Shown here in pieces: positions 2,394 through 34,652 of a stretch of DNA of 35,127 nt; positions within the stretch are counted from its first letter, which is position 1, and each line of letters opens with the position of its first letter. The stretch is taken from positions 1 through 35,127 of the forward strand of contig CAMFTS010000003.1 in the NCBI GenBank assembly GCA_945988915.1. Reading direction: 5' to 3'. The translations under genes and the position numbers were made by a program. Origin of the DNA: an uncultured Clostridia bacterium. GTDB lineage: Bacteria; Bacillota; Clostridia; Oscillospirales; Acutalibacteraceae. The notes beneath the pieces were generated by a model, which did not search any database, was not told the origin of the DNA, and worked only from the letters and a program-made list of their open reading frames with translations.

Positions 2394-2516
2394 GTGAAAA
2401 CACTCGGCGATTATAAAGATTGCTTGGTTGATATTTTCAAAAACACTCGATTGGCTGATATAACTATGTATATGGTATCGGTAATCAAATCATTTTTCAG
2501 AGGTAAGGGAGAATGA
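2394..2516 (+). CDS. Possible 40-residue ORF between leuS and the esterase gene
   Basis: A GTG-initiated ORF of 40 codons starts 9 bases after the leuS stop and is preceded by AAGGTGAT at a usable distance. Its TGA overlaps the ATG of the next gene in an ATGA junction, an arrangement typical of translational coupling. The product begins MKTLGDYKDCLVDIF, has a hydrophobic middle (ITMYMVSVI) and ends in a basic tail (KSFFRGKGE). I do not recognise a family. It could be a real small membrane-associated peptide, a coupling leader for the hydrolase, or chance. The start codon, spacing and overlap are seen directly; coding status is inferred. Confidence 0.35.
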   Translation: MKTLGDYKDCLVDIFKNTRLADITMYMVSVIKSFFRGKGE

Positions 2517-3829
2517 GCAAATATTCAAACAGAATAATCAGTACAGTGCTTATTATTTCCCTTACTTTAGGGATTTGGTATCAAACGGATGCTTTTGCCA
2601 AAAGAGCTGATTTTGCGCAAAAGGTAAACTCGGAAACACAAACCGAAATTGTCTATGGCGAATATGATGAGATAGACAGAGAGTTTGCTTCAAATAAAGA
2701 AAATCTCGTCGGACTTATAGAATCTGCCGGTCTTGCCGATGACGAGAATTTCACTTTCAGAGTCAAGTCTTTGTTCGTTGAGCTTTACGGCTTCTTAAAG
2801 GATATCTTTGTTCAGGGCGGCAAGGTTACGGATATGGATTCCGCGGAGCAAAGATTTACAAGCATATTCAACGGACTTTTTGAGTTGGATACAAAGCTGA
2901 ATGAAATCAATCCTGAGGCTATGGGAGAGCTTACAAACAAGGGATTTGTAACCTCTGCGATTATGATAGTCTGGGATTTGGTAACCGCTTTTGATAATAA
3001 CCGCGTCAATTCGCAGACTATGGAGTCCGGAGTTACAAGGCTTGAAGATATTTCATACATAGACGACGGCACAAATGAGCATATGCTTGATGTGTATTAT
3101 CCTGAAGGCACAAGCGAAAAGCTTCCCGTGATTATTGATATTCACGGCGGAGGACTGATGATGGGTGATAAGGATTCAAACAGAGTTTATTGCTCGGTAC
3201 TTGCCAAAAAAGGATATACGGTAGTCGCTGTCAATTACAGACTTTGTCCCGATGTGCTTTATCCGTCACAGGTGCAGGATATTATGGCGGCTTTCAGATG
3301 GGTACACGATAATGCCGACAAATACTATATTGACCTCGACAAAGTGTATGTTACAGGCGACTCGGCAGGCGGAAATCTCGCGTATTATGTGCCTCTTGTA
3401 AATACAAGTAAAGAGCTGCAGGAGCTTTATTCGGTTGAGCCGTCAGGACTTTCAATAGACGCGCTGGGATTGGTTTCCGGTATGTTCGATATGAAAAACG
3501 GCTTTAACGGACCGCTGATTTCTTCATATCTGGGATTTGACTATAAGAATTCTCCGTATTATAATTATTTACAACCGGAGGAAGCTTTGCCGTTGGGTGA
3601 ATTACCTCCATGCTATGTGGTTACTTGCACAAGAGATTTTCTTCATGCATCAGGCGTGGCGTTTGATGAAGTATTGACAGAAAAGGGAATAGAACATCAA
3701 TTCCGTGATTGGGGCTTGACGGTCAACAAGTCGTCAGGACATATTACGAGCGTTGCTTATCCCGAGCTTGAAGAAAGCAAGACTACAATAAATGAAATGT
3801 TGGCTTTTTTTGAAAACCATACATATTAA
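2513..3829 (+). CDS. Secreted alpha/beta hydrolase (HSL/esterase-type)
   Basis: This is a predicted exported carboxylesterase/lipase-like hydrolase of 438 residues. Residues 8-28 form a hydrophobic signal segment, followed by an AFA-K cleavage-like site. Residues about 35-175 are a largely helical region with no recognised family. The C-terminal half is an alpha/beta-hydrolase fold-3 domain: the oxyanion-hole motif HGGG is at 211-214 (DIHGGGLMMGD), the nucleophile elbow GDSAGG has Ser284, and the likely remaining triad residues are Asp375 (CTRDFLH) and His410 (SSGHITS). All core catalytic residues are present, so it should be active. Its substrate is unknown; with a secreted dockerin protein next door, deacylation of plant or cell-wall polysaccharide is possible but unproven. 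The start overlaps the end of the small upstream ORF, and the downstream gene begins 22 bases after the stop. Confidence 0.88.
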   Translation: MSKYSNRIISTVLIISLTLGIWYQTDAFAKRADFAQKVNSETQTEIVYGEYDEIDREFASNKENLVGLIESAGLADDENFTFRVKSLFVELYGFLKDIFVQGGKVTDMDSAEQRFTSIFNGLFELDTKLNEINPEAMGELTNKGFVTSAIMIVWDLVTAFDNNRVNSQTMESGVTRLEDISYIDDGTNEHMLDVYYPEGTSEKLPVIIDIHGGGLMMGDKDSNRVYCSVLAKKGYTVVAVNYRLCPDVLYPSQVQDIMAAFRWVHDNADKYYIDLDKVYVTGDSAGGNLAYYVPLVNTSKELQELYSVEPSGLSIDALGLVSGMFDMKNGFNGPLISSYLGFDYKNSPYYNYLQPEEALPLGELPPCYVVTCTRDFLHASGVAFDEVLTEKGIEHQFRDWGLTVNKSSGHITSVAYPELEESKTTINEMLAFFENHTY

Positions 3830-3851
3830 TTTTTTGAAAGGGGATACCTAT

Positions 3852-5867
3852 ATGAAAAAGACAAAAATTTTAAGCGCTGTTTTAACAGTTGTTATGCTGC
3901 TTTCGCTTCTTCCCGTGAATGTGTTTGCGGCAAAGAGAAATGATTCTGTAGTAAGCGGTTCTCTTGTCCTTTCCGAATCCCATATGGGCAAAAGAGTTAC
4001 GGGCGCAATACCTCAGGGCTTGCCGGAGATTAAGAATGCCGCAGCTACATACAAGTTCTATGACAATCTTACGGATTTCCAAAAGCGCATCTATAACGAG
4101 TTTCTGGCAACAGAGGGTGTGCTTGGACAGAATATCAGTCTTTTATGCAGTGAAAGTGAATTGGGCGGCCTTGATTTGGAAGTGATATCCACAAATATAT
4201 ATTATGCTTTAGCGTCGTTTTTTGAGGATAATCCCGAATATTATTGGTTGCTTTATGCACCGCTGCAATTCGAGATTAAGGAACAGGGCAGCGACTACAT
4301 ATTAGAATTGAAATTGGATTACGAAAGTATTCCATATTCAAATGAAGCAGAGCTCAGAAGCGAATACAACAGAACATTGCAAGCTGTTGAAGACTTCTCC
4401 GTTTCAGGCTCAACAAGATATGAAAAAGTTAAGAGTATCAATGACGGTCTTTGTGAGCTTGCAACATACGCTGATTTGACCGGTGAAGTTAGTGAAAAAG
4501 TGTTTTACCCGTCAAGCTGTTTGCTTTATCCTTATGAAACTGTTTGCGACGGTTACTCAAAGGCTTTCAAGCTTATTTGTGACAGAGAGAATATTCCCTG
4601 TATTATAGTTTGCGGCTACGGCTATGTATATAATATGTCCGGTGAACTTGAACCCGGAGGTCACGCATGGAACTATGTTCAGATGGAAGACGGAAAGTGG
4701 TACGCAGTTGATGTTACCTGGAATGATTCAGCTTATGATTCCGGTGCTCATGACTTGGCATATGATTACTTCCTTAAGGGAAGAAACAGCATTGACAGCT
4801 CAGGTGACAGATTTGCGGTAACTCACGATCCCGTAGGCGACAGATTTGTTGTTCCCGATGAATTCGGCAGAGAAAATCTTATTTGCATGTCATATCCTGA
4901 ACTCAGCGAGTCGGAATACGATCCGAATACGATTGTAGATCCGATTCCCGATAATCCCGGCACAGATGTAGTTGCCGATGTCAACGGTGACGGTAAGCTT
5001 TCGGTCGTTGACGCAAAATGGATTTTACAGTCGCTTGCCGGACTGAGAAACTTAAATTCTGCTCAAGACTCAGCTGCCGATGTAAACGGAGACGGTAAGC
5101 TTTCGGTTGTTGACGCAAAGTGGATTTTACAGGCACTTGCAGGCTTGAGAGTGCTTGGCGAAGAGGAGTCACATGTTATCAAGAACTACCCAGAATTCCC
5201 AGCTCTGGATTTAGGCGCATACTTTGATGTTCCTTACATTGATAAGGTTTATGATTATGGTCCGGAGTATGGCGATATTGGTAATTTACCACCAGCAGAT
5301 GCACCTTTGGTTGAAGTTGAATACATTTATAGACAAAGCGATATAGAGAGCGTTGGTTTTGTAGATGATTACTCAAACCTTCTAAGGAATAGTGGCTTTG
5401 TATATCTTGGAACAACTGCTTTAGTTGGTTGGTCTTATTATTCAGAATTCTATTCCAATAATTCTGTTGGCGTATCAATAAAATATTATGACAACGGAAA
5501 TTTAGGCGTGCGGTTGTATAAGTCTAATTATATTTACCAATATTCTGATTACGATCTCCCAGACTTTGGCGAAATCTTTGATGTTCAATATTGGCATTTA
5601 AGGTCATATAGTGATGGTTCTGCGACTTACGATTATGAGCTATCACAAGCAAAAGAGGCTGACCCTAATAACGAATATTTTAACATACTTAAAGAAAACG
5701 GTTTTGCTTTAGTTGACCAAAGCTATTTTGAAAATTGCGGAGAGTATTATACAGAATGGGTATTTGAAAATTCTAAAACAGGAGTTCGTTTAACTGTTCA
5801 GACTGATGATACCTATTATACAATAATGTTTGGCTTGATAGCGAACCTTGATCGCAATGACTGGTGA
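3852..5867 (+). CDS. Secreted transglutaminase-like protein with type I dockerin and duplicated C-terminal domain
   Basis: A predicted exported 671-residue protein. The start chosen is the ATG at 3852, preceded by GAAAGGGGAT and followed by a clear signal peptide (MKKTKILSAV...VFA-AK); an in-frame upstream ATG at 3792 lies inside the preceding gene. Residues about 200-300 hold a transglutaminase-like core with triad Cys232 (TVCDGYSKAF), His271 (GGHAWNY) and Asp287 (VDVTW). Residues 376-433 are two dockerin repeats, each DVNGDGKLSVVDAKWIL with intact calcium ligands, which should dock to a cohesin on a scaffoldin. The region after about residue 500 carries two related copies of an unrecognised domain (near 507-560 and 609-660, both starting Y-x-N-L/I-L-x-x-x-G-F). 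Its codons look more AT-rich than the first half. The gene is followed directly by a strong terminator. Confidence 0.85.
   Translation: MKKTKILSAVLTVVMLLSLLPVNVFAAKRNDSVVSGSLVLSESHMGKRVTGAIPQGLPEIKNAAATYKFYDNLTDFQKRIYNEFLATEGVLGQNISLLCSESELGGLDLEVISTNIYYALASFFEDNPEYYWLLYAPLQFEIKEQGSDYILELKLDYESIPYSNEAELRSEYNRTLQAVEDFSVSGSTRYEKVKSINDGLCELATYADLTGEVSEKVFYPSSCLLYPYETVCDGYSKAFKLICDRENIPCIIVCGYGYVYNMSGELEPGGHAWNYVQMEDGKWYAVDVTWNDSAYDSGAHDLAYDYFLKGRNSIDSSGDRFAVTHDPVGDRFVVPDEFGRENLICMSYPELSESEYDPNTIVDPIPDNPGTDVVADVNGDGKLSVVDAKWILQSLAGLRNLNSAQDSAADVNGDGKLSVVDAKWILQALAGLRVLGEEESHVIKNYPEFPALDLGAYFDVPYIDKVYDYGPEYGDIGNLPPADAPLVEVEYIYRQSDIESVGFVDDYSNLLRNSGFVYLGTTALVGWSYYSEFYSNNSVGVSIKYYDNGNLGVRLYKSNYIYQYSDYDLPDFGEIFDVQYWHLRSYSDGSATYDYELSQAKEADPNNEYFNILKENGFALVDQSYFENCGEYYTEWVFENSKTGVRLTVQTDDTYYTIMFGLIANLDRNDW
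4977..5150 (+). repeat. Dockerin DNA direct repeat (two about 72-base copies)
   Basis: The two calcium-binding dockerin segments are encoded by near-identical stretches at about 4977-5048 and 5079-5150. By eye they differ at around ten positions, mostly silent or conservative. They are separated by a 30-base linker encoding NLNSAQDSAA. The similarity suggests fairly recent duplication or gene conversion, as is common in dockerin modules. Confidence 0.85.
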
Positions 5868-5874
5868 TAAAACA

Positions 5875-5910
5875 CCCCATACGGATTTTTTCCGTATGGG
5901 GCTGTTTTTA
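5875..5910. terminator. Bidirectional intrinsic terminator between convergent units
   Basis: An 11-bp perfect stem (CCCCATACGGA at 5875-5885 with TCCGTATGGGG at 5891-5901) has a T-rich 5-base loop and is followed by CTGTTTTTA on the plus strand. On the minus strand the stem is followed by TGTTTTATC. It lies 7 bases after the dockerin gene and overlaps the stop codon of the minus-strand holin gene, so it can end both converging transcripts. Confidence 0.92.
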
Positions 5911-6153
5911 TTTATTCAACTGTTTTACTATTTGATTTCCGTAAACGGCTGCACCCGATACAAGCACGCCCTGAATTACGGAATTTACGCTCAAGCCCAT
6001 AATTCCCAGGCATCCGAGTATTCCGAAAAACAGAAGTATAACCGGAATGTATTTATCGGGAATTTTTTTCGTGTGCTTTATCATCATACCGATAATATTC
6101 AGCGCGGGTATGAGTATCAGCGCATTTTTAAATATATAATTTAAAATATTCAA
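5908..6153 (-). CDS. Phage-type holin (Hol44 / holin superfamily V-like)
   Basis: An 81-residue small membrane protein with two or three hydrophobic segments (about 5-24, 36-54 and 57-73) and a basic C-terminal tail (KQLNK). The pattern resembles the Hol44-type holins found beside endolysins in clostridial prophages. Holins make lesions in the cytoplasmic membrane and let an endolysin reach the wall. Translation starts at a TTG at 6153 preceded by GAGGTGAT. The gene begins 9 bases after the lysozyme stop and ends inside the shared terminator, making it the last gene of the minus-strand cassette. The precise holin family is inferred from memory of similar proteins; the role is supported mainly by size, topology and the adjacent lysozyme gene. 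Confidence 0.75.
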   Translation of the reverse strand: MNILNYIFKNALILIPALNIIGMMIKHTKKIPDKYIPVILLFFGILGCLGIMGLSVNSVIQGVLVSGAAVYGNQIVKQLNK

Positions 6154-6162
6154 TCAATCACC

Positions 6163-7053
6163 TCAAGTAATATCTGACTTGTTAACATAACCCGTGACAT
6201 TTTTGTATAACGGCTTTTTACCTGCGCGTTCCGGTTTATTTGTTATCCTGAAGCGAGAATTTATGAGTATGCCGTCATAAATATAATATGCACCGCTTTT
6301 CCTGACTGACAATTTCTTGGTGTCGGCGGAGATATATACAGGGGTATTTTTAAGCGTAATCTTTTGTCCCTTGACAAAGTCCGGCTTGCTTGTCTGCGTC
6401 GGCGGTTTATCGATTGCAGGCTTTGCATCGGAATTATCTTTGAAACCGTTGAATCCCCTCGATTTAATGATTGCGGGATAGTCTTTGTATGCCTCGTTCA
6501 TATCAACGCTGCCTCGGATTCCGTTGACCTTGCCTGTCGCTGAATACTGCCACATACCGTATTTGCCCTTGTAAGTGTTTTCCTTTGACCACTGTGCAAC
6601 CCAACAGTCATATTTATTTTTACACTCGTCATCAATAAAGCGGTCAAACCAGTGCTTGCTGCTGTAAACACCGATATAATAACCGGATTTTTCCATTTCG
6701 TTGCAGAATGTTTTAATTAACTGCGACACAAATTCTTTGCCTTTATCGGATTGACTTTTTTCTTCAATATCAAAAATGACGGGCATTTCAAATTTTTTTC
6801 CACTGAGCCATTTAAGAAAAGTCTGCGCTTCTTTTTTTGCGTCATCGGCTGACTTTGCATAGCTGTAAATATATGCACCGAGCTTGATGCCTGCCTTTTT
6901 TGCGGCAGCGTAGTTTTCTTCAAATTTTTCGTCTTTTTGATTGTCGTATTTTCCGTATCCTGCGCGAAGAATTGCAAATTCAATTCCGTCGGCTCTGACC
7001 TTCTTCCAATCAATTGTTCCGTTGTGCTTAGAAACATCAATGCCTTTCATCAT
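6163..7053 (-). CDS. GH25 lysozyme (phage-type endolysin)
   Basis: A 296-residue N-acetylmuramidase-type endolysin that would hydrolyse the MurNAc-GlcNAc bond of peptidoglycan. Residues 1-200 form a GH25 barrel: it opens with GIDVSKHNG (Asp6), has the catalytic DxE pair Asp95/Glu97 in PVIFDIEE, and has the C-terminal barrel signature CWVAQWS followed by MWQYS and a GSVDMN segment. After a Pro/Thr/Lys linker (about 210-225), residues 228-296 look like an SH3-type wall-binding domain. No signal peptide is present, so export would depend on the neighbouring holin. The start ATG at 7053 overlaps the preceding gene's stop as ATGA and has AAAGGA about ten bases upstream. Confidence 0.92.
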   Translation of the reverse strand: MMKGIDVSKHNGTIDWKKVRADGIEFAILRAGYGKYDNQKDEKFEENYAAAKKAGIKLGAYIYSYAKSADDAKKEAQTFLKWLSGKKFEMPVIFDIEEKSQSDKGKEFVSQLIKTFCNEMEKSGYYIGVYSSKHWFDRFIDDECKNKYDCWVAQWSKENTYKGKYGMWQYSATGKVNGIRGSVDMNEAYKDYPAIIKSRGFNGFKDNSDAKPAIDKPPTQTSKPDFVKGQKITLKNTPVYISADTKKLSVRKSGAYYIYDGILINSRFRITNKPERAGKKPLYKNVTGYVNKSDIT

Positions 7054-7274
7054 ATTACTTCATTCCTTTCAATATTTTCGATTCTCGTTTCCTGACTTTT
7101 GATTTTCTCCTCTATAACAGGTATTCGTTCTGCGAAATTATTATGCTTGTCAACTTTCTTTTCAAGCTGCTGAAGTCTGTAATTTGTAAGCTTTGCGCTG
7201 GCTAAAATTCCGCCTATTGTACCGAACATTGTGCCGAAAAATGAAACAACAGATACAATGATTTCAGTATTCAT
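7050..7274 (-). CDS. Small membrane-anchored coiled-coil protein of the lysis module (XhlA-like)
   Basis: A 74-residue protein with one N-terminal membrane helix (about residues 4-27, glycine-rich TMFGTIGGILAS) and a charged heptad-like C-terminal half (LQQLEKKVDKHNNF...IPVIEEKIKSQETRIENIE). Proteins of this shape regularly sit between the fibre and endolysin genes of clostridial phages and resemble haemolysin XhlA-type accessory lysis proteins. Assignment is by architecture and position, not by catalytic motif. It starts directly after the fibre gene stop and overlaps the lysozyme start by 4 bases, indicating coupled translation. Confidence 0.7.
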   Translation of the reverse strand: MNTEIIVSVVSFFGTMFGTIGGILASAKLTNYRLQQLEKKVDKHNNFAERIPVIEEKIKSQETRIENIERNEVI

Positions 7275-8819
7275 TTAATCACCGCCCCATTTGTTTGTTG
7301 CACTGACAATATATTTTGATGTTTCAAGTAATGGCACAGAACTCTGTACCGTTAAATAAAATCTGTTTTTGATTGCTGTCGGAAGAACAGCAAAAGTTTT
7401 TAATATACCGCTTTTTGAAAGCTCGGTGTTTTTATTGGCTTTGGTTTTTGAAAAACTGTATTCTGTTGTCAATATGCCGGTAACTTCATCAAATTTCTGC
7501 GAAACAAAAGCAAATATATCGGTACTGTTAAGCAAATCACCGTCAATCGTAAATTGTATAACAATGCCCGATGCATAACCGATACTGATTTTATATGCTT
7601 CGGTTTGCAGCTGCGACAAATGCAATTCAATATATATGTTTCGCTCACCCAGTCTGTCAATCGTTTTTGAAGTAATATTTGCAGTAATTGTTTCATTCAA
7701 TACTTCTTTATATTTGTATTTGTCTAAAGTGTCATAAATTACTTTATTTTGTAAGGGATTTTCGCTTGTTCCGTTCAGTTCGCTGTCAACAGTTACCGTA
7801 TAATTTAGCTTTTCAACAACTTCATTACTTAACTTGTTTTCTGTGATTACACCGTTTGATATTTTTTCATTTGTTATTGCATATGTCTGAAGCTTATCGG
7901 TTGAAATTGCACCGGGGAAAATATGGTATGCTTCAACAGCCTGAGGTTTAATTTTGCTGTTGGTTACAGCACTGTTTGCTATTTTTTCCGTTGTGACCGA
8001 TACATCCTGAAGATGTGATGTCTTTATGATGTTGTTTATATTGTTGAGTTTTTTGTTTTCAACATCCGTTACTCTGGTGCTGAGACTGTTAATTTCAGAT
8101 GCTACCAAGCAATTCATTGCGGCATTTTCCGAATATTCGGAAAGAAAATCGTCAACAACGGTGTTATTCGCATTTTCCTGAATTGAGTTAAGCTTGTTTT
8201 TGAGTTCATCGGTAAAATCGTTTGTTGTGAGAGTTTTTCCGTTTTGCTTGTCAACCTTGTTGTTTAATTCATTGGTGACAGCCTTGTTTTCTATTGGGTT
8301 GGTACTGTTTGAATTCAATGCCGAATCTACGGTTGTAGGTTCGCCTTTATCACCTTTGTCACCCTTATCGCCTTTGTCGCCCTTATCGCCCTTGAAGTCA
8401 CCGTTTTTTATTGCTTCAAGCATTGCATTTATTGAAAAATCGTAAGAATTTGCAAGGTCTTTGCTGTCGCCTTCTACCGAACTGAATGTAAGTTTAATTG
8501 TCGTTGCTTTGTAGAGATATGTTGTGGCATAAGTTACAGGGTCAACCTTTGCAACATTGAAACAGCATAAGACAGACATCTGACTTGTAATTGCGGCAGG
8601 AAGCGGAAAGATAAGGTTGCCTGAACTGTCAGGGGTAAGATAATCTGTTCTGACAATACCTGACGGAGTCGCAAAATCTAAATAGAATTTATAACTGCCG
8701 TTTAAAAATTCAGTAGCAATTTTAAAATAGAGCTTTTTAGCGTTATTCTCAAACATCAGGCCGCCGTCCATTTCGTAATCGGCATGGGTTGATGTTATAT
8801 AAATAGTCGAAGTAGCCAA
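7275..8819 (-). CDS. Phage baseplate/tail-fibre-like protein with collagen-like stalk
   Basis: A 514-residue structural protein. Residues 1-135 resemble the BppU-type N-terminal domain of phage upper baseplate proteins. Residues about 143-162 are a collagen-like Gly-Asp-Lys run ending GEP. The region to about 375 contains fibre-type motifs: two copies of VDSxLN...NPxxNK, near residues 174 (NPIENK) and 354 (NPLQNK), and repeated I-T-x-E-K-I-x-N-G-x-I-T segments. The last 140 residues are a beta-rich head with no family I recognise, a plausible receptor-binding tip. It begins with TTG at 8819 behind AAGGAGGAACT, 2 bases after the regulator's stop. With no capsid or tail-tube genes here, it is either a remnant or a domesticated fibre. 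The phage-like architecture is clear; the binding target is unknown. Confidence 0.82.
   Translation of the reverse strand: MATSTIYITSTHADYEMDGGLMFENNAKKLYFKIATEFLNGSYKFYLDFATPSGIVRTDYLTPDSSGNLIFPLPAAITSQMSVLCCFNVAKVDPVTYATTYLYKATTIKLTFSSVEGDSKDLANSYDFSINAMLEAIKNGDFKGDKGDKGDKGDKGDKGEPTTVDSALNSNSTNPIENKAVTNELNNKVDKQNGKTLTTNDFTDELKNKLNSIQENANNTVVDDFLSEYSENAAMNCLVASEINSLSTRVTDVENKKLNNINNIIKTSHLQDVSVTTEKIANSAVTNSKIKPQAVEAYHIFPGAISTDKLQTYAITNEKISNGVITENKLSNEVVEKLNYTVTVDSELNGTSENPLQNKVIYDTLDKYKYKEVLNETITANITSKTIDRLGERNIYIELHLSQLQTEAYKISIGYASGIVIQFTIDGDLLNSTDIFAFVSQKFDEVTGILTTEYSFSKTKANKNTELSKSGILKTFAVLPTAIKNRFYLTVQSSVPLLETSKYIVSATNKWGGD
8341..8394 (-). repeat. 9-base tandem repeat encoding Gly-Asp-Lys collagen triplets
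   Basis: Six consecutive 9-base units (consensus on the plus strand TCRCCYTTR, variable at third codon positions) encode the GDK triplets of the fibre stalk. Gain or loss of units stays in frame, so the stalk length can change without disrupting the protein. Confidence 0.85.
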
Positions 8820-8821
8820 AA

Positions 8822-9217
8822 TTAGTTCCTCCTTGTAGTTGATTTTAATAATTCTTCAAGATTTGCGGGAGGATTTATAAGTGTAAAGCCGCAGCAGTAA
8901 ACATATTTTAAATTCTCATAGAGCTTTTTTGAGGCTTTTTCCAACACTCTGTAAACGGATTGACGGCTTACAGAATATTTCCGGGCAATATCACCGACTC
9001 TCATAAGAAGAAAGTATTTATCGTTGATATATTTCTTTTCTGTTTCATCAAGCTCATTTTCAATAGCTAACTTCATCACTCGCTCAAAGTTTTGCTGACG
9101 CATACTGACAATGTATTTCGGTAATTCCTTTACATCATCTGCTGTCATCATTTCGAATTTTTCACTTAAAAACAGATATTCGTCACGGCTTAACTGTGTA
9201 GGATTATTGTTCTTCAT
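8822..9217 (-). CDS. Small HTH regulator with sigma-region-4-like domain
   Basis: A 131-residue protein, first gene of the minus-strand cassette. The start chosen is the ATG at 9217, which has AGGAGG six bases upstream; an in-frame upstream ATG at 9241 lacks a ribosome-binding site. The N-terminal half is charged and helical. Residues about 75-110 hold a helix-turn-helix (VGDIARKYSVSRQSVYRVLEKA) like sigma-70 region 4 or phage late-gene regulators. No region 2 is evident, so it is probably a transcriptional regulator, not a complete sigma factor. Its position suggests it controls the fibre/lysis genes, perhaps also the divergent polysaccharide promoter. Similar layouts with a regulator leading a holin-containing unit are known (tcdR and tcdE of Clostridioides difficile), but homology to TcdR is not claimed. 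Confidence 0.7.
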   Translation of the reverse strand: MKNNNPTQLSRDEYLFLSEKFEMMTADDVKELPKYIVSMRQQNFERVMKLAIENELDETEKKYINDKYFLLMRVGDIARKYSVSRQSVYRVLEKASKKLYENLKYVYCCGFTLINPPANLEELLKSTTRRN

Positions 9218-9250
9218 CGTTATCCTCCTGAAAAATGGCATAAATTAAAA

Positions 9251-31566: not shown

Positions 31567-31595
31567 GTGTCCAGAGGACACTCACGCAGTTTTAT
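31561..31595 (+). terminator. Operon-end intrinsic terminator overlapping the VanZ-like stop
   Basis: A perfect 12-bp stem (GCGTGAGTGTCC at 31561-31572 with GGACACTCACGC at 31576-31587) closes on an AGA loop and is followed by AGTTTTATT. It includes the TGA of the VanZ-like gene and probably ends the polysaccharide operon transcript. Confidence 0.75.
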
Positions 31596-31761
31596 TCGCC
31601 TTTTGGCGAGTGATATTGCTTCGCAGTTATATAATGCTACGCATTGTGATATTGTCCTTCGGACAGTTTTATGCGAATAAAATAACACTGAAATCGAAGA
31701 TTTCAATATCACTATGCCGAAAAGTGCATAATATCACTCTTTCCGAAGGAAAGAATATCAC
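31596..31761. repeat. Array of mini-hairpins with inverted gtgatatt/aatatcac spacers
   Basis: Seven short stems lie in 166 bases: 31596-31609, 31617-31625, 31633-31645, 31653-31665, 31690-31704, 31713-31730 and 31738-31754. Most have 3-base loops. In the left half three loops are TTC or TAC, and GTGATATT occurs at 31610-31617 and 31646-31653. In the right half the clear loops are GAA, and the reverse complement AATATCAC occurs at 31705-31712, 31730-31737 and 31754-31761. The whole is a large imperfect inverted repeat that could fold as a branched cruciform. I see no ORF in it. It looks like a dispersed non-autonomous repeat element, sitting between two converging transcription units. The rest of the non-coding stretch up to 31896 holds a small CCAC/GTGG hairpin (31786-31799) and the terminator at 31815-31852. 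Confidence 0.75.
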
Positions 31762-33128: not shown

Positions 33129-33233
33129 TGTGAGCGTGATTTGCTTTTAAATCTGCTCTTTTTTTATGCCCTTTTTTATGACAAAATTTTTATTTCGCTT
33201 AATATACAATCAATTCAGAAAGGAATGAGAAAA

Positions 33234-33575
33234 ATGCAAACAAGAATTGAAATCAATGAAAGTATTGTTACGGCATATCTTTCGGGTGAAATAGACCACC
33301 ACAACGCGCCTGAAATAAGAGAAGCAATAGATGAATGTATTATCAGCAGAAAACCGAAAAGGCTGATTATTGACTTTAAAGATGTTACATTTATGGACTC
33401 TTCGGGAATAGGACTTGTTATGGGCAGATACAGACTGATTGAGAATACAGACTGTAAAATGGCAATAATTAATCTTTCCGTTCACGCTTACAGAGTTATG
33501 CAGCTTGCGGGAATGGATAAATTAGCTGTCCTTAAAAAGAAACCTAAGGAGGAAAAAAACAATGAAATCGCTTAA
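33234..33575 (+). CDS. spoIIAA: Anti-sigma F factor antagonist SpoIIAA
   Basis: A 113-residue STAS-domain protein. When dephosphorylated it binds SpoIIAB and releases sigma F in the forespore. The phosphorylation motif is FMDSSGIGLVMGRY, with Ser56/Ser57 at the site equivalent to Ser58 of Bacillus subtilis. The ATG at 33234 is chosen because AAAGGA lies about ten bases upstream; earlier in-frame ATGs would add a hydrophobic, unrelated N-terminus. It overlaps spoIIAB by 14 bases, the conserved order of the spoIIA operon. I could not identify a convincing sigma-H promoter upstream. Confidence 0.95.
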   Translation: MQTRIEINESIVTAYLSGEIDHHNAPEIREAIDECIISRKPKRLIIDFKDVTFMDSSGIGLVMGRYRLIENTDCKMAIINLSVHAYRVMQLAGMDKLAVLKKKPKEEKNNEIA

Positions 33576-34002
33576 TTCAGTGAAAATTCAAATAGAAAGC
33601 CGTTCGATAAATGAAGCGTATGCAAGAGTAGCTGTATCTGCATTTGCTTCTCAGCTCGACCCGACGGTTGAAGAAATAAACGATATCAAAACCGCGGTAA
33701 GCGAAGCTGTTACAAACTGTATAGTTCACGCATACAGGAACGGATTGGGAATAATATACATAACCGTAAACATTCTGGAAAATTCTGTTCTTGAAATTAA
33801 AATCCGCGACAGAGGCTGCGGAATAGAAAACATAAAAAAAGCTATGGAGCCTTTGTTTACCACGGGCGGCACAGACAGAGCGGGATTAGGCTTTTCCGTA
33901 ATGGAGAGCTTTTCCGACAAGGTAAAGGTTCGTTCAAAGGTCGGAGTGGGTACAACAGTTACAATTATTAAAAGAATACGGGGCAGAGCTTCGCTTGTAT
34001 GA
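33562..34002 (+). CDS. spoIIAB: Anti-sigma F factor / serine kinase SpoIIAB
   Basis: A 146-residue GHKL-family ATPase that binds and inhibits sigma F and phosphorylates SpoIIAA. The N-box is EAVTNCIVHAYRN, the G1 box IRDRGCGIENI and the G2/lid region GGTDRAGLGFSVMESF. Length matches the family. The start has AAGGAGG about ten bases upstream. The 3' end overlaps sigF in an ATGA junction, consistent with tight stoichiometric control of the anti-sigma and sigma factors. Confidence 0.96.
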   Translation: MKSLNSVKIQIESRSINEAYARVAVSAFASQLDPTVEEINDIKTAVSEAVTNCIVHAYRNGLGIIYITVNILENSVLEIKIRDRGCGIENIKKAMEPLFTTGGTDRAGLGFSVMESFSDKVKVRSKVGVGTTVTIIKRIRGRASLV

Positions 34003-34652
34003 CAAACCGTGATTTGATTGAAGGCAACCTTGCCCTTGTCCATTCATGCGCAAATCGTTTCAGAAACAAGGGGATTGAATACGATGATTTGTATCAGGCA
34101 GGGTGCTTAGGTCTTGTAAAGGCGGCAGACGGATTTAAAGAGGAATTGGGCTTTAAGTTCTCGACATATGCCGTACCTGTAATTCTCGGTGAAATAAAGA
34201 GACTGTTCCGTGACGGAGGCGCGGTTAAGGTCAGCCGCACCATGAAAGAAAAGGCGCGCCTTGTATTAAAGCAGAAAGAAATGCTTGAATCAAAGCTCGG
34301 CAGAGAACCAAGCGTTAAGGAAATTTCCGAAAGTCTCGGGATTGACAGCTTTGAAACGGCAGAGCTTCTGAATGTATCGCTTCCGCCTGTTTCATTGACG
34401 GCAGCGGATGACGAAGAAGAAAGGCAAACAGATATTCCTGTTGAATCGGAGGAAGAAAACATACAGAATATTCTTGCCTTGAGAGAAATACTCTCACATC
34501 TGCCCGAAGATGAAAGGCAGATAATTTTCCTGAGATATTACAGAGGCTTGACTCAGACTCAGACTGCCGAAAAAATAGGTGTTTCGCAGGTTCAGGTGTC
34601 GAGAAAGGAAAAAAAGATTATAAGCAAGGTTAAAAATTGTATGCTGGAATAG
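33999..34652 (+). CDS. sigF: Forespore sigma factor SigF
   Basis: A 217-residue sigma-70 family protein directing early forespore transcription. Region 2 includes GIEYDDLYQAGCLGLVKAADGF and FKFSTYAVPVILGEIKRLFRDGG. Region 3 holds KVSRTMKEKAR and LGREPSVKEISESLG. The region 4 helix-turn-helix is LTQTQTAEKIGVSQVQVSRKEKK. It is somewhat shorter than the Bacillus protein at its N-terminus, as in other Clostridia. Its place directly after spoIIAB settles the identity as SigF, not SigG. Confidence 0.95.
   Translation: MTNRDLIEGNLALVHSCANRFRNKGIEYDDLYQAGCLGLVKAADGFKEELGFKFSTYAVPVILGEIKRLFRDGGAVKVSRTMKEKARLVLKQKEMLESKLGREPSVKEISESLGIDSFETAELLNVSLPPVSLTAADDEEERQTDIPVESEEENIQNILALREILSHLPEDERQIIFLRYYRGLTQTQTAEKIGVSQVQVSRKEKKIISKVKNCMLE

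Follow-up and report, generated by a model that had tools for sequence, protein, structure and literature searches.

A dockerin-bearing transglutaminase-like protein with a duplicated, unnamed C-terminal domain in an uncultured Acutalibacteraceae bacterium

The gene and its surroundings

The window analysed here is a stretch of 35,127 nucleotides from contig C3 of the genome of an uncultured gut bacterium of the Clostridia (G000; 1.22 Mb in 147 contigs, 68.8% complete). On its forward strand we located a gene for a predicted secreted protein in which a transglutaminase-like core, a dockerin and a long C-terminal tail follow one another (Table 1). An in-frame ATG also exists upstream, at position 3792, and from the sequence it seems the less likely start, since the ribosome-binding-like stretch lies in front of the ATG at 3852 and the signal peptide begins there. 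The esterase-like gene on the 5' side is probably co-transcribed with it. Directly after the stop codon lies a terminator-like hairpin, graded as strong, which indicates that the tail belongs to the gene.

Table 1. Features of the transglutaminase-dockerin gene and its immediate flanks, in window coordinates.
Feature	Position	Strand	Basis or remark
Alpha/beta-hydrolase (esterase-like) neighbour	2513..3829	+	22 bases upstream; neighbour also in G001 and G002
Ribosome-binding-like AAAGGGG	3837..3843	+	upstream of the ATG at 3852, read from the sequence
Coding sequence, 671 aa	3852..5867	+	open frame; dockerin-bearing transglutaminase-like secreted protein; homologues found
Signal peptide, residues 1-27	3852..3932	+	judged by eye
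Transglut_core (PF01841), residues 182-287	4395..4712	+	Pfam E 1.3e-6, 29.1 bits, cut-off 23
Cys232 codon, putative catalytic	4545..4547	+	invariant in 40 aligned sequences
His271 codon, putative catalytic	4662..4664	+	invariant in 40 aligned sequences
Asp287 codon, putative catalytic	4710..4712	+	invariant in 40 aligned sequences
Type I dockerin (PF00404, Dockerin_1), residues 375-429	4974..5138	+	Pfam E 1.9e-8, 34.8 bits, cut-off 22.9
Tail domain copy 1 (R1), residues ~452-557	5205..5522	+	local alignment, profile matches
Tail domain copy 2 (R2), residues ~569-661	5556..5834	+	local alignment, profile matches
Terminator-like hairpin	5875..5901	+	just 3' of the stop; found on both strands

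Beyond the hairpin, the minus strand (5900-9241) encodes a holin-like short frame, a GH25 lysozyme, a collagen-like protein with head-repeat-like sequence and an HTH regulator, which we read as a phage-like lysis cassette and which are kept in three species. A polysaccharide (capsule or exopolysaccharide) cluster occupies positions 9592-31566, between the HTH gene (8822-9241) and a STAS gene (33141). The genes flanking this site are close neighbours in two related genomes (G001 and G002), which marks the cluster as a variable island some 24 kb long. It is followed on the forward strand by a Gut-1 RNA (RF01706) at 31587-31657, scoring 58.1 bits, above the gathering score. Finally, three genes at 33141-34652 with STAS, histidine-kinase-like ATPase and sigma-70 domains stand in the order spoIIAA-spoIIAB-sigF, an arrangement that suggests a spore former.

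The sequence-only reading of this locus had proposed a transglutaminase-like core with a Cys232-His271-Asp287 triad, and our results bore this out. The Pfam score for PF01841 exceeds the gathering cut-off, the three residues are present in order at those positions, and they are invariant in the 40-sequence alignment, where they occupy columns 206, 245 and 261 (the aligned sequence begins at residue 27). The closest solved structure by sequence was TglA of Streptococcus pyogenes (PDB 9crn), which was also the top structural match of the predicted fold (E 2.9e-14), followed by putative cysteine proteases and TGases.

The dockerin consists of two 22-residue calcium-loop repeats that are identical at 21 of 22 positions. 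With both PF00404 and PF01841 above their curated cut-offs, the proposal that a non-carbohydrase enzyme carries a dockerin holds. Its internal position had been taken as a sign of fusion, a weak argument given that 32 of the 207 dockerin proteins of Ruminococcus flavefaciens FD-1 have an internal dockerin, next to 156 with a C-terminal and 19 with an N-terminal one (PMC2930009). Both the combination of this enzyme type with a dockerin and the internal location are already known; new relative to the sources consulted are the unnamed tail domain as a family and the fact that it is joined to a dockerin protein.

The tail domain and its history

The tail after the dockerin comprises 239 residues (433-671), and not the ~170 of the earlier estimate, but the duplication described within it was confirmed. 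It contains two copies of a domain of ~95 residues, R1 and R2, which are 19% identical. Their local alignment has a score of 63, whereas shuffled sequences averaged 32.3 (sd 5.8) and none of 2000 reached the real value; a single profile recovers both. With moderate confidence (pLDDT blocks of ~41-82), AlphaFold predicted that R1 consists of a short helix and two strands followed by a helix and four strands, and R2 folded alone gave the same order of elements with low confidence (pLDDT 50).

As had been supposed, the domain is unrecognised: nothing in Pfam exceeded its cut-off, NCBIfam contained no named family for it, PHROGs returned a single weak match, for one member of the domain family (E 0.0089), and a search of PDB sequences gave no credible match. 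Candidates that we rejected as not credible were DUF2812 of Pfam (E 0.06 and 0.36 only) and the PDZ and klotho matches of the tail profile against PDB sequences (E ~0.1). A fold search with the full model produced weak matches to domains of ~100 residues (Flpp3, KA1), which were not significant and were not used.

We then searched for the domain across the order, class and phylum with profiles grown from the copies found. Its members share a [VIL]PDFG-like start, a Y-x-Y strand and a helix ending in Y...L...GF. One copy closes two proteins with SLH and Trypsin_2 domains (L165, L166), SLH-like and trypsin-like frames end in two copies (L217) or one (L218), and another protein has Trypsin_2 followed by two copies (L170). 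The domain also follows Big_2 (L167, L168) and Cu_amine_oxidN1, there as one copy (L176) or two (L177), and further families across the Clostridia carry related domains, single or paired. It is uncommon, being present in 2 of the 39 genomes of the genus and, at threshold, in 9 of 394 in the order, a count that includes two matches probably due to chance. L169 and L171, from the order-wide search, were excluded as likely chance matches, on account of a partial profile and the wrong kind of protein. From the architectures recovered, the tail is best described as a domain, so far uncurated, with which surface proteins of Clostridia end and which stands, single or paired, beside unrelated catalytic and anchoring domains; it merits a family entry.

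These occurrences bear on the idea that the tail assists the dockerin, making its hold on cohesin more stable or adjusting it in the manner of the X module of X-dockerin pairs. In G000 and G001 alike the tail does come after the dockerin; we nevertheless consider such a role quite unlikely, as the other family members found sit in proteins without a detected dockerin and none of the other 18 dockerin frames of G000 has a tail domain.

The codons of the tail had been described as AT-rich, and the drop is real. GC3 is 0.403 in residues 1-370 and 0.419 in the dockerin, and the tail value of 0.285 differs from the upstream value of 0.405 with p = 0.0025 when stratified by amino acid. The value is nevertheless within the ordinary local range: among neighbouring genes, values this low occur in 5.7% of the 239-codon windows and one gene falls to 0.26, and elsewhere in G000 the overall GC3 of several dockerin genes is 0.2-0.3, with several lower than the tail. 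In the orthologue of G001, GC3 falls from 0.538 to 0.427 toward the tail, a non-significant change. Composition does not flag the tail as foreign. The inference from a low-GC tail to an acquired module is weak, and we reject recent acquisition inferred on this ground in view of the local GC3 range together with the presence of the domain in the syntenic G001 orthologue.

That orthologue (L039), the best relative, lies in the same gene order on contig Lapin-024 of G001, described as gut-type, with identities of 91% for LeuS, 71% for the esterase, ~42% for the transglutaminase-dockerin gene and 64% for GH25; the synteny further includes the collagen-like protein and the HTH gene. The order LeuS, esterase, transglutaminase and GH25 is kept in G001 and G002. 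In G001 the protein has the transglutaminase core, an extra stretch of ~100 residues, the dockerin and one tail copy, and the positional orthologue of G002 is a transglutaminase-dockerin protein that ends right after the dockerin, with no tail copy. A tree of LeuS and the esterase placed G001 and G002 as sisters and G000 outside them with a support of 100. Given this order and a tail in both G000 and G001, the simplest history is that the tail was present in the common ancestor and was lost in G002. The duplication is not recent either, since R1 and R2 are so divergent and, in an unresolved tree of copies, separated by about the same distance as lies between either of them and the copies of other families.

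The earlier suggestion of a gain by fusion was therefore right in part. A tail of the same composition in all homologues would have spoken against fusion; tail-less homologues exist, that of G002 included, and the modules were joined at some time, but not recently. In its strong form, a foreign module recently fused in this strain behind a normally terminal dockerin, the idea is improbable and already largely refuted. The GC3 drop agrees with it, as do the C93 paralogues of G000 and the G002 orthologue, which end at the dockerin, and the confinement of the domain to so few genomes of the genus; it conflicts with the copy in the syntenic G001 orthologue, with a tree that makes presence most simply ancestral, with the low identity of R1 and R2 that bespeaks an old duplication, and with a tail composition inside the local range.

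Dockerins and cohesins in the genome and the genus

The genome G000 contains 19 dockerin frames. Five are transglutaminase-like: the one in the window, three in tandem on contig C93 and one on contig C7. Pfam identified three of them, and similarity plus the active-site motif the other two, both on C93. Among the rest, four have BspA-type LRRs and two have FIVAR repeats, and single frames have a CHAP-like domain with a ricin-type lectin, a CAP domain, an alpha/beta hydrolase, Big_2 or a pullulanase-like domain (C35); in the remaining frames no other Pfam domain was found. A recognised glycoside hydrolase is present in one of the 19 frames and absent from the other 18, and dockerins in G000 are thus not mainly on glycoside hydrolases or other carbohydrate-active enzymes.

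Three of these loci have features of their own. The genes on C93 (L030) run head to tail and lack the tail domain, the third has a different type of dockerin, and the array resembles the group 4b operon of R. flavefaciens. The C7 protein (L038, 6502-7893; 464 aa) has a signal peptide, an N-terminal dockerin, choline-binding repeats and a C-terminal transglutaminase core, that is, its dockerin and transglutaminase modules come in the order opposite to that of the window protein. A protein of 981 aa on C1 (L026, 7872-10814) unites a CHAP-like domain, a ricin-type lectin, a cohesin-like domain, a dockerin and a further C-terminal region, so that cohesin-like domain and dockerin occur in one protein and the dockerin is again internal.

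Cohesins are few in the genome but not lacking, which makes docking plausible; a complete lack would have refuted the sequence-only reading. Our scan found two matches above the cut-off, one in a protein of contig C6 and the other the cohesin-like domain of the C1 dockerin protein; when searched as whole proteins against Pfam they reached 22.1 and 22.4 bits, below the cut-off of 24.1. The C6 protein has a signal peptide, one cohesin, a Thr-rich linker, a hydrophobic membrane-like segment and a Lys-rich end (KKKDEE), with a degenerate sortase signal (Gram_pos_anchor 15.0 bits, cut-off 20), and has orthologues in G001 (E 3e-57) and G002 (5e-49). One or more cohesins above the cut-off turned up in each of the 39 genomes searched in the genus. 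In G001 and G002, both 99% complete, dockerin matches (57 and 31) far outnumber cohesin matches (3 and 1), so many dockerins may bind something that the cohesin model does not see. G000, 69% complete, may also miss further cohesins; no frame in it has several confident ones, as a multi-cohesin scaffoldin would, and in G001 two sub-cut-off matches fall within one frame of 741 aa.

The sequence-only reading had envisaged recruitment to a cellulosome-like complex. With one glycoside hydrolase among 19 dockerin frames and no multi-cohesin scaffoldin in the incomplete G000, "cellulosome" is probably the wrong picture, and judging from gene content the dockerin system appears to dock proteins singly at the surface instead of assembling a cellulosome on a scaffold. 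The pullulanase-like dockerin protein, and the joint occurrence of cohesin-like and dockerin modules in the C1 and, weakly, the C35 proteins, would fit a genuine polysaccharide-degrading cellulosome or amylosome; weighed against the single recognised hydrolase and the lack of a multi-cohesin scaffoldin in this incomplete genome, membership of the window protein in one is highly improbable.

The same repertoire gives some weight to a non-enzymatic reading, in which the transglutaminase-like fold would serve for binding or structure, with the protein displayed on the surface as an adhesin. Several dockerin proteins of G000 look adhesive (LRR, FIVAR, Big_2), and the gene has diverged faster than its neighbours, its identity being ~40%, compared with 91% in LeuS and 71-73% in the esterase. 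The complete Cys-His-Asp triad in 40 of 40 aligned sequences makes this reading unlikely.

Proposed role and comparison with known systems

We favour, with a rough probability of 55%, a cysteine enzyme with the transglutaminase fold that is docked at the surface and ends in accessory domains for binding. The secreted protein would act on peptide or amide bonds, either as a hydrolase or as an acyltransferase, and its nearly symmetrical type I dockerin would bind a cohesin and so hold the enzyme at the cell surface. The partner would most likely be the single-cohesin, C-terminally anchored C6 protein of G000. The two tail copies would be accessory domains beyond the docking site, probably binding the substrate or a surface ligand and placed as the PDZ domain is in HtrA-type proteases; a role in substrate recognition is weakened by the occurrence of the domain on proteins without protease domains. 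The weak whole-protein cohesin scores, the degenerate sortase signal of C6, the excess of dockerin over cohesin matches in G001 and G002 and the low (R2) to moderate (R1) confidence of the tail models also count against the docked-enzyme proposal.

More tentatively, and with some doubt, we suggest that the genus uses cohesin-dockerin pairs as a general surface display, in which one or a few wall-held cohesins would serve dozens of mostly non-carbohydrase cargoes (transglutaminase-like, LRR, CHAP, CAP and FIVAR proteins). The window protein would be an exposed cargo that captures its target through the paired tail domains, members of an unnamed family also present in SLH-anchored proteases. With non-carbohydrases dominating the dockerin cargo, the genus would be tractable for the study of cohesin-dockerin roles besides fibre digestion. 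That dockerins in gut Clostridia are not confined to fibre digestion is apparent from Candidatus Limousia, for which a "mucinolysome" resembling a cellulosome has been described, with peptidases that bear dockerins and a scaffoldin that is anchored to the wall and highly expressed (PMC12997984).

For the catalytic part, S. pyogenes TglA is the best match in both sequence and fold, with the sequence match confined to that part and an identity of ~20% across the fold alignment. The tail has its counterpart in the SLH-anchored trypsin-like (HtrA-type) proteases of Clostridia (L165, L166, L170, L217, L218), which likewise end in one or two copies of the domain and are, like the window protein, secreted surface proteins with a hydrolase domain; they have an SLH anchor and a serine protease, whereas the window protein has a dockerin and a Cys-His-Asp enzyme.

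The putative cohesin partner recalls ScaE of R. flavefaciens, a single-cohesin wall-anchored protein that binds the dockerins of ScaB and CttA (group 4a; PMC2930009). C6 resembles it in having one cohesin, a linker and an anchor-like C-terminal end; ScaE is anchored by sortase, whereas the sortase motif of C6 is degenerate. The nearest known relatives of the whole arrangement are also in R. flavefaciens FD-1, where ten dockerin proteins were counted as transglutaminase and the operon ORF01263-ORF01267 encodes transglutaminase-like proteins with internally symmetrical group 4b dockerins (PMC2930009). As in the window protein, a signal peptide and a transglutaminase-like domain are combined there with a dockerin of near-identical halves, and tandem paralogues occur in both organisms, in G000 as the three genes on C93. 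The likeness to group 4b lies in the symmetry of the dockerin halves, and the FD-1 proteins end with the dockerin, whereas the window protein adds its two-copy tail.
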